Shown: positions 5,527-37,084 of the stretch, in pieces
Layout: every line of letters starts with the position of its first letter
Position numbering within the stretch: the first letter of the stretch is position 1
Source: Bacillota bacterium
GTDB taxonomy: Bacteria; Bacillota; Clostridia; Oscillospirales; CAG-382
Direction of reading: 5' to 3'
DNA: 49,418 bases
Assembly: GCA_029550965.1 (NCBI GenBank)
Contig: JAKPGJ010000019.1
Location: 1 to 49,418, forward strand
Notes under the pieces: model-generated
Seen by the model: the letters and a program-made list of their open reading frames with translations, nothing else
Told to the model about the DNA's origin: nothing
Database searches by the model: none
Program-made: the position numbers and the translations under genes

Positions 5527-5922
5527 CCGCTGTTTTAAAGCGGATCAGAAACGCTGAAATTGCGGGTTTTTTCATGAAAGGACTTTTATAGTTTCATTGT
5601 AAAAGACCGTGTTTTTATAAGACTTACCGGATTTTTTCATACGAATGTTAAAAAGAATAATGAAACGATTTTTATAGTTGTGCAAGTGAAAGCTACGAAA
5701 AGATATTCTTAGCTGTACAGATTTCGGAAACATAAAAAGGGCGGACAGTCAATGCCGATACGGGGTTGACTGTCCGGAGGATTCGTTAAGGTCGAATACA
5801 ACTGTTTAGTATCTTGAATACCACATGGTGATAAAGCTTAAAGCTGAGTATTTTTTGAAGTGGATTGCCTTTATCCCGGCAAAATATTCTTACACAAGAC
5901 AAAACAGAAGGGACTTGTTAAT
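5527..5922 (+). other. 396-nt intergenic region between cheW and the first chemoreceptor
   Basis: No coding sequence is evident. It contains a weak hairpin just after cheW (CCGCT/AGCGG around 5527-5543) without a good T-run, a near-repeat of 20 nt (5574-5593 and 5660-5679, 18 of 20 identical), and a strong inverted repeat at 5742-5776 described separately. The region presumably holds the promoter and 5' leader of the receptor gene. Confidence 0.6.
5733..5776 (+). promoter_or_regulatory. Inverted repeat with a possible sigma-28 promoter in its centre
   Basis: Arms CGGACAGTCAA (5742-5752) and TTGACTGTCCG (5766-5776) are exact reverse complements with a 13-nt centre. The centre holds GCCGATA (5754-5760), the flagellar sigma (SigD/FliA) -10 core, and TAAAAA begins at 5733, giving a spacer of 15-17 nt depending on register. 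This fits a flagellar-class promoter under an operator for the receptor gene 150 nt downstream. The alternative is an RNA hairpin. The promoter match could be chance. Confidence 0.4.
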
Positions 5923-8058
5923 ATGAAAAAGATATCAGGCATAAGCAGTTTATCCACAAAATTATTACTTGGAATCGGCAGTTTTGTTTTGGCCGTTTGT
6001 TTGGCGTTATCGTCGATCGCGATTTTCCTGACGAAAAACACGATGGATAAAAACGTGAACGACACGATGACCGGCCTTGCCAAACAGGCGGCGGATACGG
6101 TTGCCGAGAAAGTGAACGGTAGTTTTGGAAGCCTTATCGCGCTTTCTCAAGATACTAACTTCGAAGATATACTGGCGAATAAAAGCAACATTCAGTCTTT
6201 AATCAGAAAAGTCGCGGATAAAGAAAAGGATTTCGACATCATCGTTTCTGACGCGGACGGATACGGATATTCTGCGAAACACGACAGCGTCTATATCGCG
6301 CAACAGGAGTTTTTTAAAGAGGCTGTCCGGGGAAACCCGAACGTTTCCAACCCGTACATCGATGAAAACGACAACGCTTGGGTGATCGCGTTCAGCCTTC
6401 CGATCAAAAACGAAAGCAACAAAGTGGTCTTCGTTATCACGGCGGTCAGACCGGCGTCTGAATTGTCCGAGTTGGTTGGTACGATTTCTTACACCGGCAA
6501 AAACAGCTCGGCTTTTGTGATCAATAAAGACCTGAAGGTCATCGCGCACAAAGATTATGAGAAAGTTACCAGTTCGGAAAACGCCGAAGACATTGCTTCG
6601 CTGGATAAAATTAAGGATAAACTGTTTTCCGGCCAAACAGGTATCGATACATACTCGTATAAAGAAAACAAAAAGTCCGTCACCAACTACATAGCGTACG
6701 CGCCGATCGAGGGCACAAGATGGTTTTTGGCCATCACCGCGCCGGAAGCTGAAATTAATCAGGGATTTCGCTCGTTAAACACCTCCATCGCTATTGCTGC
6801 CGCCGTAATCCTGGTGGTCAGCGCAATTCTGATATATGTTATTACTTCTCAAATTAAAAAACCGGTGAACTTGGCGAAAGTGTTCGCAGAGAACCTGGCG
6901 CAGGGCGATTTGTCGCAGGAACTGCCGGAGAAGCTGCTGAACAGAAAAGACGAGCTCGGCAACCTGGGCAAAGCGTTTGAACAGGTTATCAGCAACCTGA
7001 ACGGACTTTTGGAGAATATTCGTTCTTCCGCAGACCAGGTGGCGTCCGGCGCAAAGCAGATTTCCGATTCGAGCATGGCGTTGTCGCAGGGCGCGACGGA
7101 GCAGGCAAGCACGATGGAGCAGCTTTCTGCGACCATCGAGGAGATTTCCGCGCAGACCAGACTGAACGCCGAAAACGCAGTTCAGGCAAACAACATCGCG
7201 ATCGAAGCGCAGCAGAGCGCGCATCTTGGCAACGAACAGATGAAGCAGATGCTTGCCGCGATGAATGAAATCAGCACTTCTTCTAAAAACATCTCCCAGA
7301 TTGTAAGGGTTATCGACGACATAGCCTTCCAGACCAATATCCTTGCGTTGAACGCGGCTGTTGAGGCCGCGAGAGCCGGACAGGCCGGCAAAGGTTTTGC
7401 GGTCGTAGCGCAGGAGGTTCGCAACCTCGCTTCCAGAAGCGCGAGCGCCGCAAAGGAGACGACCGCGCTAATTGAAGGCTCCATTAGAAAGATAAACGAC
7501 GGCGTGAAAACGGCGAACGAAACCGCGGAGCATTTAAGCAAAATCGTTTCGAACATTTCCAGGGTGGCCGAGATTGTCAACAGCATCAGCGTCGCTTCCA
7601 ACGAGCAGGCTTCCGGCATCGCGCAGATTAATCAGGGAATCATGCAGGTTTCGCAGGTCGTTCAGGAGAACTCTGCGACCGCGGAGGAGAGCGCGGCTGC
7701 AAGCGAGGAGCTTTCCGGACAGGCTGCCTTGCTCAAAGAACAGATCGCCGTCTTTAAACTGAAAAAAGACATAGAGGAAATAAAAGAAGAAAAAGTAAAG
7801 AGCAAGAAGAGCAAGAGCAAGAAGAAGAAAAAGAAGAAATTATTTAATTATATTAAAAAGAAAAAGGCAAATAAAGAGAGCAAAGAAAAAACAGAGAATA
7901 AAGAAAAAACAGAGAACAATGAAAAAACGGAAAAAACAGAAAGCATAGAGAACATAGAGATTACCGTAAATAACGACCAGCCCGCAGCAAATACTGTGAA
8001 CGAAAGCAGTGCGCAGCAGGAAATTCTCTTGAGCGACACTGATTTCGGAAAGTATTAA
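5923..8058 (+). CDS. Methyl-accepting chemotaxis protein, dCache type, with Lys-rich tail
   Basis: A 711-residue membrane chemoreceptor. One N-terminal membrane segment (about 15-37), an extracellular double-Cache ligand domain (about 40-285), a second membrane segment (about 290-310), HAMP, and a long cytoplasmic signalling coil with the hairpin tip [20 protein letters not shown]. At the tip a Gln follows AARAG where many receptors have Glu. The last 110 residues are low complexity and very basic, with [14 protein letters not shown] followed by EKTEN-like repeats; there is no aromatic CheR-docking pentapeptide at the end. The ATG at 5923 is chosen because AGAAGGGAC lies just upstream; the frame stays open further 5' without a ribosome site. 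The ligand cannot be read from sequence. Confidence 0.93.
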
Positions 8059-8149: not shown

Positions 8150-10376
8150 ATGAAAAGGAAAATTAATTTGAGTATATCGTTGAAATTAGTTGTTTATATC
8201 AGCGCGGTAATACTATTAATATGCTCATTTATTACATTGTTTGCTGCAATCGTTTGCGAGGATCTTCTGGTCGATGAAGCAAAAGAAACGTTGACCGAAA
8301 TCGCAAAAGGGGCGTCGAACACCGTTTCGGCAAAGGTTGACGCCAACTTCAACAGCCTAAAGATTCTGCTTAAAAACGACATATTCCTGGACCCGAAAGA
8401 GAACAGAGAAAAAATCATCGAGCTTCTGCGGGGTCAGATCAATAAAGACGGCTGCATTGATATGACCATCATTGATAAGGAAGGCAAATCCTTCTCGGTA
8501 AAGGATAAGGACAGAAACCTTTCCGACGAAGAGTATTTCCAAAAAAGCCATCAAAGGGCAGAAGTTCGCCACCGATCCGTTCTTCAAACCGGGAGAACAG
8601 GAAAAAATCATCATTTACGCCTATCCGTTTATCAATAACGACGGCGAGATTATCGGCGTTTTAACCGCCACGAAAAAAGCGTCCGAATTGTCGGATATGA
8701 TCAAGAACGTAAAATACAAATCCGGCAATACGTTCATTATTTCGAGTACATACACGACCATCGCGCATACCAATCCCGATAAGATTTCGGAAAACATCGT
8801 AGAGAAAGCGAAAGAAGATTCATCGCTCGAAGACCTTGCGAAAATCGAACAGGCAATGGTGGTCCAGGCGAGCGGCGTCGATACCTATAAAGAGAACGGC
8901 GAGACCAAATACATCGCGTACGCGAAGATTGACGGTACGACATGGGCGCTGGCGATCGACGTGCCTGAGAAGGACGTGACGGAAGCGGTTGAAAGCCTTG
9001 TAACCGTTTTGATTATCATCGGTATTTTCGGCCTTGCGCTCGGCATGTTTATCTCCGTATTTATCGCGCAGGGGTTCAAGAAGCCGATTAAAAGGTTAGT
9101 AAAGGTTTCCGAGCAGTACGCAAGAGGCAGATTCGATGTTGACGTAGACCTGAAACGAAGGGATGAGTTCGGAAAACTCGCCAGCAAGATGCAGCAAATC
9201 TGCGACAATATGAACGTGCTGATTCACAACATTCGCAGCGCTTCCAAAGAAGTCGCGTCGAGCGCGAAGCAGATTTCCGATTCGAGCATGATTCTTTCGC
9301 AGGGCGCGGCCGAGCAGGCAAGTTCGCTGGAAGAACTTTCGGCGACGATGGAAGAAATATCTTCCCAGACAAGGCTGAACGCCGAGTTCGCTGAGAACGC
9401 GAACCAGATTTCGAGCGAGGTGCAGAAGAAAGCCGAGCTCGGCACCGACCAGATGAACCTTATGCTGGGCGCGATGGAGGATATCAATCACTCTTCCGCC
9501 AATATCTCTCAGATTATCAAGGTGATCGAAGATATCGCGTTCCAGACCAATATCCTGGCGCTGAACGCCGCGATTGAGGCCGCAAGAGCCGGCGAATCCG
9601 GAAAAGGTTTTGCCGTCGTCGCCGAAGAAGTAAGAAATCTGGCGGTTCGGTGCGCGGAAGCGGCGCAGGAGACGAGCGAACTGATCGAAGCTTCGATGAT
9701 AAAAGTGCAGGACGGCGTCAAGATTGCGCAGGATACCGCCGATTACCTGAACATGATTGTCAACGACGTCTCGAAGGTTGCCGAGCTTGTAAGCAACATT
9801 TCCATCGCTTCCAACGAGCAGGCATCCGGCATCGCGCAGGTAAATCAGGGCATCATCGAGGTTTCCCGCGTCGTTCAGGAGAACTCGTCCACCTCTGAGG
9901 AAAGCGCGGCAGCAAGCCAGCAGCTTTCCGGACAGGCTGCGCTGCTGGACGAACAGATTGCGAAATTCAAACTCAAGGACGTCATCCCCGATATTCAGCA
10001 GTACGATTTGGATGAGTACGAGGACGACGAGATCGAGGAAGAAGACGAAGAAGACGAAGACGAGACCGACGTTGAGGCTTCCGAGGAAAGCGTTGCCGCC
10101 GAAGAAGCAGACGAAACCGGCAGTGACGCCGCGGTCGAAGCCGGCGCAGTCGAGGATTTCGGCGCAGAACCCGAGATTACTCTGAATGCCATCATCGCCG
10201 ATTCAGATAGCGAGAGCGGTATCGCGGACGAAGAAATTGAGCAGAGCAGCGACGCTGTCGATGCCGGCACGGACAACGCTGCGGTTTCGGAAGACGAGAC
10301 GGTCGAAACCGAACCGGCCTTTGAAGAAAACCCTGAAGACAACACGACTACGGACAACGAGGATATTAAAATTTAA
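8150..10376 (+). pseudogene. Methyl-accepting chemotaxis protein, frameshifted, acidic tail
   Basis: A second dCache chemoreceptor, paralogous to the one before it. The 5' part (8150-8638) encodes the first membrane segment and the start of the Cache domain; after EEYFQK it runs out of frame. Dropping one base from the A6 run at 8541-8546 restores [16 protein letters not shown] and joins it to the rest, giving about 741 residues. The 3' part (from about 8548; first internal start 8688) carries the rest of Cache, membrane segment 2, HAMP and a normal tip ([20 protein letters not shown]). The C-terminus is a 130-residue Asp/Glu-rich low-complexity tail. Either a true frameshift, a sequence error in the homopolymer, or slippage. 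A start at 8150 has GAAAGGCAG upstream. Confidence 0.88.
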
Positions 10377-12325: not shown

Positions 12326-14158
12326 ATGAAAGGAAAAGTTAGATTAGGCAATAGGATTCTATTGTTTGTTTCCCTTATATTTATTATCGCGATGGGTTTA
12401 ATTCTAAACATGACCGTTAAGATGATTTCGAATTACAATAACAGCGTAATTTCGGAAGAAGTGAAAAACGGCGTCACCGTATTGGCAAAAAAGGTGGAAA
12501 GTCTTCAGGAATCATCGGCGGGATTCGCGCAGCTGGCCGCCGACGACCAGGAGATTTCGGCGGCTATCCAAAACTCCGATGCCGGCAAACTTGACAGCTA
12601 CGCAAAAAATATCCATAACAGCACGAAAACCGATTTTGTCATCTTTACCGATAAAGACGGACGGTTCGTCGCCGGCGTGGGTCAGAAAAGCAACTCCAGC
12701 AATTTAAGGATTAACCCGGTTGTCGAAAAAGCGCTGAAGGGAGATATCATCACTACGGTTGAGTCCGCCATAACAGCGCATTTTTCCGCTCTGACCGCGG
12801 CGCCTGTTAAGGATTCAAACGGTACGGTTGCGGGCGTCGTAATAATAGGCTATCTGCTTGATAATCAAAGCATTATCGACGATATAAGCCATCAGGTTGA
12901 AACAGACGTCACGATTTTTCAGGGAAATACCAGAATCAACACCACGATTGAAAAAGACGGCGTCCGTCAGGTCGGAACTCAGCTTTCGGAAGCGGTAACG
13001 AAAGTCGTTATCGAAGAAGGCAAAGACTATGACGGCAAAGCGGACATACTTGGCAGCGAGTACTTATGTTCCTACCGCCCGCTGAAAAATCATAACGGCG
13101 ATATTGTGGGCGTATTGTTCGCCGGCAAGTCCATGGAAACAGTAAAACAGCTGGCAAGAAACATCTATATGGCTTCCTGGACGGTCGCAGCAATTACAAT
13201 AATCGTCATTTTAGTCGGCTTAATCCTGTATCTAAGAAACGTGGTAACCAAGCCGCTGAAGAAGGTTGTCAGCGCCGCCGAGACGATTTCAGAAGGCGTG
13301 CTTGACGTTCAAATCGACGTAAAGAGCAAAAACGAGATCGGAATACTGGCAGACGCGTTTACAAAAATGGCGGACAAGCTGAACGATCTGATCCGTCAGG
13401 TTTCGGAATCCTCCGACAGAGTCGCGGCGGCTTCCAAAGACATTGCATCCTCCAGCGTTACGTTGTCGGAAGGATCGGCCGAACAGGCGGCTACCATGCA
13501 GGAGTTAAGCGCGTCCTCCATGGAAGTTTTGTCCATGACGCAAAACAACGACGAGAACGCGAAGAACGCTTCGAAATTGTCTGAGGCGGTTAAAGACAGG
13601 TGCACCGAAGGCAATGAGAAGATGAAAGAACTGCTGAAAGCCATGGAAGGCATCAACGCTTCCTCAAAGAAGATATCCAAAATTATAAAGGTAATAGACG
13701 AAATTGCCTACCAGACAAACCTTTTAGCCCTCAACGCGGCGGTGGAAGCGGTGCAGGCCGGTCAGTACGGAAAAGGTTTTGCGGTTGTCGCGGATAACGT
13801 AAAACGGCTTGCCGACAAATCGGCGAAAGCCGCAAAAGAGATTTCCCAGATTATCGAAGAGTCCGTCGTCAACGCGGAAAGCGGAACCGAATTGGCAAAC
13901 GAGACCGCAAGCATCCTTGCAGAGATTTTCGAGAACATCAATGAAGTAAACGTCATGGTCAACGACATTTCAAGAGCCACCACAGAACAGTCGGTCGGCA
14001 TTTCCCAGATGAATACCGCAATCGAGCGAATCGCAAATATTCTGCAGTCTTATTCCTCTATGGTGGAAGAAAGCTCGGCTGCCAGCGCGAAGCTCTCCGA
14101 ACAGGCGGATCTGATGAAACAGCAGGTATCGTTATTTAAGCTACGGGAGCAGGAATAG
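12326..14158 (+). CDS. Methyl-accepting chemotaxis protein with divergent signalling tip
   Basis: A 610-residue receptor. Membrane segments lie near residues 12-33 and 278-300 around an extracellular Cache region of the Cache_3-Cache_2 kind ([14 protein letters not shown], later [20 protein letters not shown]), then HAMP and the signalling coil. The hairpin tip reads [20 protein letters not shown] and [10 protein letters not shown], where typical receptors have EAARAGE and [10 protein letters not shown]. Several residues that contact CheA/CheW or partner dimers are thus changed. It ends shortly after the coil (FKLREQE), without the charged tails of the other two. An AGCGGAGG site precedes the ATG, 16 nt after cheB, so it shares the cheRB unit. 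Confidence 0.93.
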
Positions 14159-14220
14159 CTTGATATCGCATGCTGCCGATAGGATTGTTTGCGCTTTTTT
14201 GAAGACTTGTAACAAATTTG

Positions 14221-14281
14221 CCTTTCAACGTGTATTATGTTATTAAATTGAGAAATTTATAGCATTTTACACGTTGAAAGG
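14221..14281 (+). promoter_or_regulatory. Long inverted repeat overlapping a ribosome-binding site
   Basis: Arms CCTTTCAACGTGTA (14221-14234) and TACACGTTGAAAGG (14268-14281) are exact complements over 14 bp with a 33-nt AT-rich centre. The right arm contains the first part of the AAAGGAGG ribosome site of the small gene at 14291. If transcribed, the stem would hide that site; as DNA, it is a two-site operator. No T-run follows, so it is not a standard terminator. Confidence 0.6.
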
Positions 14282-14290
14282 AGGCAACTT

Positions 14291-14494
14291 ATGAGCAACT
14301 GCAACAGACGGCAACAGATAGAAAACCCGAATTCAGTAACGCTGAACGGAAGAAATATTGAACGAGAACGGCAGCGGAAAAGGAATGCCGCCTGCGAGCG
14401 TTTTCTGATATGCAGGGATTTCGGTTTCATTGGAGATACAAGGATTTTGGACTGTGTAGTAGTTAGAAGATGCAACCGAAGGTGTAGGTTCTAA
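14291..14494 (+). CDS. Cys- and Arg-rich small protein of unknown function
   Basis: A 67-residue protein that I do not recognise. It has six cysteines (near residues 4, 35, 41, 54, 60 and 64) and many arginines, including the C-terminal run VVVRRCNRRCRF. No signal peptide or membrane segment is seen. The ATG has one of the best ribosome sites in the window (AAAGGAGG, 9 nt upstream), partly within the right arm of a 14-bp inverted repeat, which argues that it is really translated and regulated. It lies between a chemoreceptor and a diguanylate cyclase whose start is 26 nt downstream. A spore-coat-like or metal-binding role is conceivable but unsupported. Confidence 0.6.
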   Translation: MSNCNRRQQIENPNSVTLNGRNIERERQRKRNAACERFLICRDFGFIGDTRILDCVVVRRCNRRCRF

Positions 14495-14520
14495 ACGGTC
14501 ATAAGCATAGAGGTTAAAAA

Positions 14521-15714
14521 ATGTTCAGGAGTTTAAAGGGTATCTTTGCATTGGACGAACCAGTTGACAGGGACGAGTTCACTGTTTACGAAATCAAGAT
14601 CAACTTAAATCGATCAAAATACTTTTCGGTCGCTTTTTTTCTATTAGATATTTTGGTGGTCATAATTTCCTTTATCAGCAGAGGAAATAGTTTCTTTCAA
14701 ATGCCGGCGGTTTTATATCTTGGCATGTATGTCACGCTGCTGGCAACCATGCCGGTTTTTTACGCCGTATTTGTGAAATATGAGAAAAACATAGCGAAAA
14801 ATATAAAAAAATTATCGGCGGCAGGCACGCTTTTCGCCGTATTTATGCTGGTATGGTGCGCGGCGATTTCGCTGCTCGACCAGCTTTCCTCCGGTCAGAT
14901 CATCATCTATGTCGGCTCCGCTACCATTTTCGCAGTAACCTCTTATATACGCCCGACGAAGATGCTGATTATCTATTCCACGGTGCACGCCTTGTTTTTA
15001 ATTGCGCTTCCGTATCTCCAGCACGACCCGAAATCGATATTCGGCAACGCGATCAACAGCACGTTGTACATAGCGCTCGCTTGGCTCATCAGCTTTATGC
15101 GGTATAAAGGCTTGATCGAGGATTTCAACAACCGCAAAAAGATTGAGATGCAGGCCGAAGAATTGAACCGCATCAACCAGGAACTCAAAAGATTGTCGCT
15201 TATGGATAGTTTAACCGGCGTTTTCAATAGGTTTATGTTCGAAGCAAAGCTTAACGAAGACTGGGAGGAGTGCAGGAATCGCTCTGTTCCGCTCGCGCTG
15301 ATTATTATAGACGTCGATTTCTTTAAGAAAATAAACGACAATTACGGTCATCAGGAAGGGGATAAGTGCCTTAAAAAAATCTCCGAAATTCTCAAAGACA
15401 GCGTAAAAGACTGGACGAATCTGATTGCGCGGTATGGCGGCGATGAGTTCGTGATATTGATTCCCGGAATGGATCAAATAACGGTTTCTGAAATCGCGGA
15501 AGAAATACGCAAAAGAGTGGAGGAGAGCCGCATTCCGCATCAGTATTCGCCCGTTTCGGAATATGTTACAATCAGCGTTGGCGCCTGCAGCGTCATACCT
15601 TCCGATTCCATAACCATCACCAATTTTATCAAATACGCGGACGACGCGCTGTATGAGGCAAAGAGAGCGCGCAACAGCCACCGCATCGCCGTATTTGAGA
15701 GGATATATACATAA
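14521..15714 (+). CDS. Membrane diguanylate cyclase (GGDEF)
   Basis: A 397-residue enzyme predicted to make cyclic di-GMP from two GTP. The N-terminal 195 residues hold about six membrane segments (near 35-55, 63-85, 103-121, 127-143, 148-166, 181-194), a MASE-like sensor of unknown stimulus. A short coiled coil (200-226) leads to the GGDEF domain, with the canonical GGDEF at 306-310 in ARYGGDEFVILI, so activity is likely. The product-inhibition I-site (RxxD) is not present; the corresponding residues are DWTN, so allosteric feedback is probably lost. An AGAGG site lies before the ATG. With the HD-GYP gene at 1466, it flanks the chemotaxis cluster. Confidence 0.93.
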   Translation: MFRSLKGIFALDEPVDRDEFTVYEIKINLNRSKYFSVAFFLLDILVVIISFISRGNSFFQMPAVLYLGMYVTLLATMPVFYAVFVKYEKNIAKNIKKLSAAGTLFAVFMLVWCAAISLLDQLSSGQIIIYVGSATIFAVTSYIRPTKMLIIYSTVHALFLIALPYLQHDPKSIFGNAINSTLYIALAWLISFMRYKGLIEDFNNRKKIEMQAEELNRINQELKRLSLMDSLTGVFNRFMFEAKLNEDWEECRNRSVPLALIIIDVDFFKKINDNYGHQEGDKCLKKISEILKDSVKDWTNLIARYGGDEFVILIPGMDQITVSEIAEEIRKRVEESRIPHQYSPVSEYVTISVGACSVIPSDSITITNFIKYADDALYEAKRARNSHRIAVFERIYT

Positions 15715-36656: not shown

Positions 36657-37084
36657 TAGTTTTTAGAGCCGAAACTGCTTTTATAAAGCGGAAAGCGTAA
36701 AGAACTTTGACCGATACTATAAGCTGCTCAGCAAAAACGCCGCACTTATAGGAAACAAGGCCTCGGACAGCCGGGTCAACTGCCGGAAGCAGCATTGTTT
36801 GTGCTGCGTTATTGATTGAGTTAAAAGCTAGAATTTTATAAGTTGGTTACTTTATAACCATGTGTATCGCATACACAACACTTGTGAAACGGTCAATAAG
36901 AGTAGTAAAAGTAGTTCTTGCTATATAGACTCTGAAAATCTGCAGCCAATATATAAACCATTTACTGTTCTCAAAGGCGACACATTAAGTGGTTTGCAGA
37001 ATAGACTCGGGTGCTGTTCTATGCGCCGGAGTTATTTTTTTACAACTCACGAATTCTATGATATACGGAAAGGGATATGCCGAA
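36657..37084 (+). promoter_or_regulatory. Long structured 5' leader of speD
   Basis: About 430 nt without a convincing gene. Stems visible: CTGCTTT/AAAGCGG near 36675-36692, CTATAAG (36717-36723) with CTTATAG (36745-36751), CCGG/CCGG around 36771-36786, GCAGCA (36789-36794) with TGCTGC (36802-36807), GGTTA/TAACC near 36845 and GTGTA/TACAC near 36862. No T-run terminator and no consensus of a riboswitch that I know (SAM, cobalamin, T-box, ykkC) was found. A 76-codon frame, GTG 36862 to TGA 37092, overlaps the speD start by 8 nt but has no ribosome site. The leader length and stems suggest post-transcriptional control. Confidence 0.5.

Follow-up and report, generated by a model that had tools for sequence, protein, structure and literature searches.

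A hairpin over the ribosome site of a small Cys-rich protein gene may make its translation depend on where the transcript starts

How can a gene be translated when its ribosome site lies in one arm of a perfect inverted repeat, and when a chemotaxis operon runs towards it on the same strand? This question is raised by a 67-residue ORF in the window (the whole stretch of DNA that was analysed, 49,418 nt). A sequence-only reading had described here an exact 14-bp inverted repeat with a 33-nt centre, whose right arm lies over the ribosome site of an ORF with six Cys, and a GGDEF gene 26 nt past the stop; we find all of these. The features that the argument uses are:

12326–14158, plus strand: methyl-accepting chemotaxis protein (MCP) of 610 aa, encoded at the end of cheR-cheB-MCP (Pfam MCPsignal, 1.8e-45; sCache; HAMP)
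14208–14238, plus strand: candidate promoter TGTAACA...TATTAT, over the left arm (consensus scan; same hexamers before the homolog)
14221–14234, plus strand: left arm of the 14-bp perfect inverted repeat, CCTTTCAACGTGTA (sequence)
14221–14281, plus strand: 61-nt hairpin made of 14 bp, an internal loop and an inner stem, which pairs the Shine-Dalgarno sequence (RNA folding)
14268–14281, plus strand: right arm, TACACGTTGAAAGG, which holds AAAGG of the Shine-Dalgarno sequence (sequence)
14277–14284, plus strand: Shine-Dalgarno sequence (SD) AAAGGAGG of the 67-aa ORF (opening-cost folding; right arm covers AAAGG)
14291–14494, plus strand: 67-aa basic Cys-rich protein with a C-terminal Cys-rich β-hairpin domain at about residues 34–62 (homolog, codons, AF2)
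14521–15714, plus strand: membrane diguanylate cyclase (GGDEF; Pfam, 2.6e-48), with an SD near 14510, clear of the hairpin

The 33-nt centre of the repeat contains a second stem, with which the arms lengthen to 29 nt at 83% complementarity, leaving 3 nt between them; because the centre itself pairs, we treat the 61-nt hairpin as the whole feature. In the centroid fold, TTGCC and GGCAA can further lengthen the base of the hairpin around a 3-nt bulge in the SD, thereby closing more of it. The RNA of 14205–14300 folds with −34.5 kcal/mol (z = −8.26), a value that none of 200 shuffles equalled, and the hairpin is the sole inverted repeat of at least 20 nt with a gap of at most 150 nt in the window. 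With a centre of up to 60 nt allowed, perfect arms of at least 14 bp appeared in none of 100 first-order Markov copies of the whole window and in none of 20,000 such trials on the local AT-rich segment. Altogether, the hairpin lies far beyond chance frequency; it is real and probably functional. Neither arm has a second occurrence in the genome. A genome-wide search for CCTTT...AAAGGAGG stems found three (two on one strand, one on the other), against 11 for a reversed-pattern control; therefore, by this pattern, the genome holds no class of such leaders. Separately, four relatives (G005, G017, G004 and G016) carry repeated palindromes, e.g. CCTTTACACAAGGGAGCC...CCTTGTGTAAAGGAGG and CCTTTGATGTATAATAAAAATGGTCTGCCAACC...CATCAAAGGAGG, at several places per genome, which look like short mobile or recombination elements.

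The predicted accessibility of the SD varies with the start of the transcript. For RNAs starting from 14159 to 14221, which contain the left arm, opening the SD would cost 7.7–11.4 kcal/mol (9.7–11.4 kcal/mol for starts at 14159–14205), as opposed to 1.5–1.8 kcal/mol for RNAs starting at 14230–14260, from which the left arm is absent; more specifically, the predicted values are 10.5 kcal/mol for the read-through RNA and 1.5 kcal/mol for RNA starting at 14243–14250. The leader of the 67-aa ORF is the most closed among ten plus-strand genes of the window (11.0 versus 0.6–5.1 kcal/mol), and only 4 of 1000 shuffles of the upstream 72 nt reached the observed cost. RNA initiated upstream is thus predicted to carry a stable SD-covering hairpin, as in read-through-silencing ribosome-site hairpins. 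The SD of the GGDEF gene opens at 1.6–2.2 kcal/mol for every start tested; therefore, the hairpin would act on the small ORF alone, unless translation of the two genes is coupled, and the suggestion that it might also control the diguanylate cyclase is not borne out.

The small ORF has a perfect SD at good spacing, and a single homolog was found, an 88-aa protein of the congener HGW-Firmicutes-21 (G001; PGZT01000050, L034 7106–7372; E = 5.5e-6). The two genes have identical promoter-like hexamers and an identical SD, and the proteins have a homologous C-terminal Cys-rich domain; 27 residues are shared, at 63% identity, with the Cys positions kept (Cys 4, 35, 41, 55, 61 and 65 in the 67-aa protein). 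The 27 shared codons comprise 2 identical ones, 15 with synonymous and 10 with non-synonymous differences, and identity at codon positions 1, 2 and 3 is 17, 21 and 6 of 27; from this pattern, the ORF therefore codes for a selected protein. Its codon usage is atypical (score of −0.17, versus 0.29 ± 0.10 for gene windows), which may reflect the odd composition of the protein. The AF2 models are of low confidence overall, and we trust only their β-hairpin, which is predicted confidently at about residues 34–62 of the 67-aa protein and nowhere else (mean pLDDT 60), and with lower confidence in the homolog (mean pLDDT 50). The N-terminal halves differ, the homolog having a heptad-like D-S-K/R repeat and the window protein a stretch rich in Arg, Asn and Gln.

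Beyond this pair, the protein was not found in the other congener (G002) or in the remaining 60 genomes of the family; at the levels of order and class, samples of 394 and 391 genomes, respectively, gave chance matches only, a pattern scan of genome contigs from 84,980 species revealed no homolog beyond HGW-Firmicutes-21, and viral contigs, phages and plasmids held nothing matching. Neither the protein nor its C-terminal profile matched Pfam, NCBIfam, PHROGs or PDB sequences, and the heptad-like half of the homolog gave weak, low-complexity PHROG matches (best 0.003) and sub-threshold Pfam matches. The sequence-only view that the protein resembles nothing known thus holds for the family databases and needs amending by one relative: of the two congeners examined, one has a conserved copy of the ORF, and as judged from sequence comparison the pair is a tiny, new, two-member family. 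Weak protein matches in seven genomes (G069, G015, G070, G392, G321, G553 and G686) were assigned to chance from a listing of their ORFs, which left out G245 and G208: several lie within other genes or on the strand opposite to them, and no small gene with the Cys pattern is among them. A type I toxin was also considered and rejected, the product being basic and Cys-rich, with no hydrophobic helix in sequence or model. A link to sporulation is unsupported, as SpoIVA is present in the source genome and G002 and was not found in G001 (91% complete), which has the homolog. As a guess, the product may be a small structural protein or one bearing metal or disulfides.

Where might the transcript start? 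The only promoter-like site in 14100–14600 consists of a −35 hexamer GTAACA (14209–14214), an 18-nt spacer and a −10 hexamer TATTAT (14233–14238); with 9 matches of 12, a level reached at a rate no higher than in shuffles, this candidate means little by itself. What speaks for it is its recurrence before the one homolog, where the same hexamers stand with a 17-nt spacer at L034 7046–7074. TGTAACA-N16..18-TATTAT occurs once in the 2.07-Mb genome, at 14208–14238, and, because the gene upstream of the homolog is divergent, the 166-bp gap with this site has to contain a promoter for the homolog. The two leaders share TGTAACA...GTGTATTAT and GAAAGGAGG; since MAFFT positioned their TGTAACA differently from an SD-anchored alignment, the homology of the leaders rests on these motif matches. 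In the window gene, the candidate −10 hexamer overlaps the end of the left arm and, therefore, the RNA is predicted to start at about 14244–14247, without the left arm or the stem. The homolog differs from the window gene by its unrelated neighbourhood, its divergent upstream gene, its own terminator-like hairpin and its weak SD hairpin: its leader is about 25 nt shorter between the −10 hexamer and the SD, its hairpin is no stronger on the SD than in shuffles, and opening of its SD costs 3.8 kcal/mol, a value as high in 336 of 1000 shuffles, so that this SD is not specially hidden.

In the source genome, CheR, CheB and MCP genes precede the ORF, all on the same strand, and the MCP gene ends 62 nt before the hairpin. 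A scan of 14100–14600 detected no terminator-like site between them, so that, as expected for a read-through silencer, the MCP is a co-directional upstream gene with no terminator in between. In congener G002, CheR, CheB and MCP stand in the same order, and after them come an inverted repeat with a T-rich tail and a gene in convergent orientation; the cyclase's N-terminal part was found in neither G001 nor G002. From these comparisons, the source lineage appears to have added the small gene and the cyclase behind its chemotaxis operon.

The surroundings offer some observations of their own. The signalling domain of the MCP at 12326–14158 reads EAVQAGQ, against EAARAG in the two other MCPs of the window and EAAQAGQ in the G002 homolog; this variant may affect the CheA/CheW contact. 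A chemotaxis receptor gene at 8150–10376 (plus strand) appears to be split by a frameshift near 8550–8690 into two ORFs, an N-terminal one of 162 aa and one of 562 aa that includes the MCP signalling domain, either as a pseudogene or through an assembly error, and the MCP at 5860–8058 (plus strand) has a long low-complexity C-terminal tail, rich in Lys, Glu, Thr and Asn, after its signalling domain. Farther away, at 36708–36786 (plus strand), Rfam RF02440 (SpF59/ldcC RNA) is matched at 37.8 bits (gathering score 37.2; E = 2.5e-5 for the local stretch), about 200 nt upstream of genes for an AdoMet decarboxylase and an Orn/Lys/Arg decarboxylase. The match may represent a regulatory RNA of polyamine operons that occurs outside streptococci; ldcC is mentioned in a 2023 paper about a class of spermidine riboswitches (PMC10853860).

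Taken together, we propose that the hairpin is a read-through silencer and that the start site decides whether the SD is hidden, a reading to which we give slightly better than even chances. RNA entering from cheR-cheB-MCP would carry both arms, fold and be untranslatable at the 67-aa ORF, whereas RNA from the gene's own promoter would begin near 14245, lack the left arm and leave the SD free. The small protein would thus be made only when its own promoter fires, despite the position of its gene behind a chemotaxis operon with no visible terminator, and the start site, not a ligand, would set stem formation. The idea of a repeat that hides or frees the ribosome site fits the predicted opening costs, and it has to be modified in that the candidate promoter lies over the left arm: a start inside the repeat, held in the sequence-only reading to speak against a switch, is read here as defining the switch, not removing it. 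The homolog, with no co-directional read-through and with an SD that is not specially hidden, argues for this scheme, although this contrast between species is a single comparison. Read-through from the MCP gene is assumed, and the hairpin comes from one genome and hence carries no compensatory evidence. One could extend the scheme to a history in which the small Cys-rich family travels with its own promoter and, after it arrived behind the chemotaxis operon, a palindromic read-through insulator was born that is absent beside the divergent neighbour, so that gene context would have driven the evolution of an RNA insulator; we regard this history as rather unlikely.

The architecture of such a ribosome-site gate is of a known kind, the novelty being the tiny protein family and the context. 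In Bacillus subtilis, the sigG gene likewise lies behind a co-directional operon, and a very large hairpin of 20+ bp has been proposed to hide the ribosome site in the spoIIG read-through RNA only and to block its translation; it is unable to form in RNA from PsigG (PMC5942855). There, the gene encodes a sigma factor and has forespore promoters and a start that has been mapped, whereas here we deal with a small Cys-rich protein, a chemotaxis operon and a sigma-A-like candidate promoter. Similarly, the early read-through RNAs of phage T4 gene e, soc, 49 and I-TevI fold over the SD or start codon (PMC3014915); for gene e, structure in the longer early RNA cuts lysozyme synthesis about 100-fold, and the 5′ part of the stem is missing from the late transcript (PMC3014915). 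The phage leaders follow late-promoter timing (PMC3014915), in contrast to a bacterial operon with no known second promoter class.

The strongest competitor, which we still consider unlikely, is that transcription from the gene's own promoter begins upstream of 14221 and the mRNA contains the entire hairpin, so that translation is off by default until a helicase, an RNA-binding protein, a small RNA or an RNase III cut opens the leader, the same logic as that of inert full-length type I toxin mRNAs. The hairpin would indeed hide the SD in any transcript begun upstream of the repeat, and a consensus scan can overlook promoters further upstream; however, the scan located its sole promoter-like site on the left arm, and the homolog has this site as well, opening would take about 10 kcal/mol with no evident alternative pairing partner, and Rfam gives no riboswitch or cis-regulator above gathering score at 14100–14560, only sub-threshold matches of the plain-hairpin type. 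Less probable still, the palindrome could be a recent product of mutation, one arm having been copied from the other by template switching, and could have little regulatory role, if any. In favour of this, the hairpin is known from one genome, and the homolog leader shares the motifs but has only a weak hairpin. Nevertheless, the 14 bp facing the SD are perfect whereas mismatches and a bulge interrupt the inner stem, a pattern not favoured if one recent copying event had been followed by neutral decay, and the SD is intact.

We think it improbable that the dyad acts as DNA, overlapping the −10 hexamer as the operator of a regulator that is dimeric or forms a loop, even though the palindrome does overlap the candidate −10 and its arms are perfectly symmetric. 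This reading, which includes the looped operator suggested earlier, is disfavoured by the lack of further copies of the arms in the genome and because pairing continues through the centre to a nearly closed hairpin, as an RNA needs and separated operators do not; the exact coverage of the SD would also be a coincidence. A mobile or repeated (MITE-like) element, or a terminator or mRNA-stability stem of the chemotaxis mRNA, is very improbable: a long dyad does lie directly behind the operon, but it is single copy, has no T-run after the stem and gives no terminator-like match.

If the start is as predicted for the read-through silencer, this locus of an uncultured Firmicutes lineage would join sigG as a bacterial example of translation that depends on the start site. 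Read-through from the operon would then be transcriptionally open yet translationally insulated, meaning that co-transcription need not mean co-expression.
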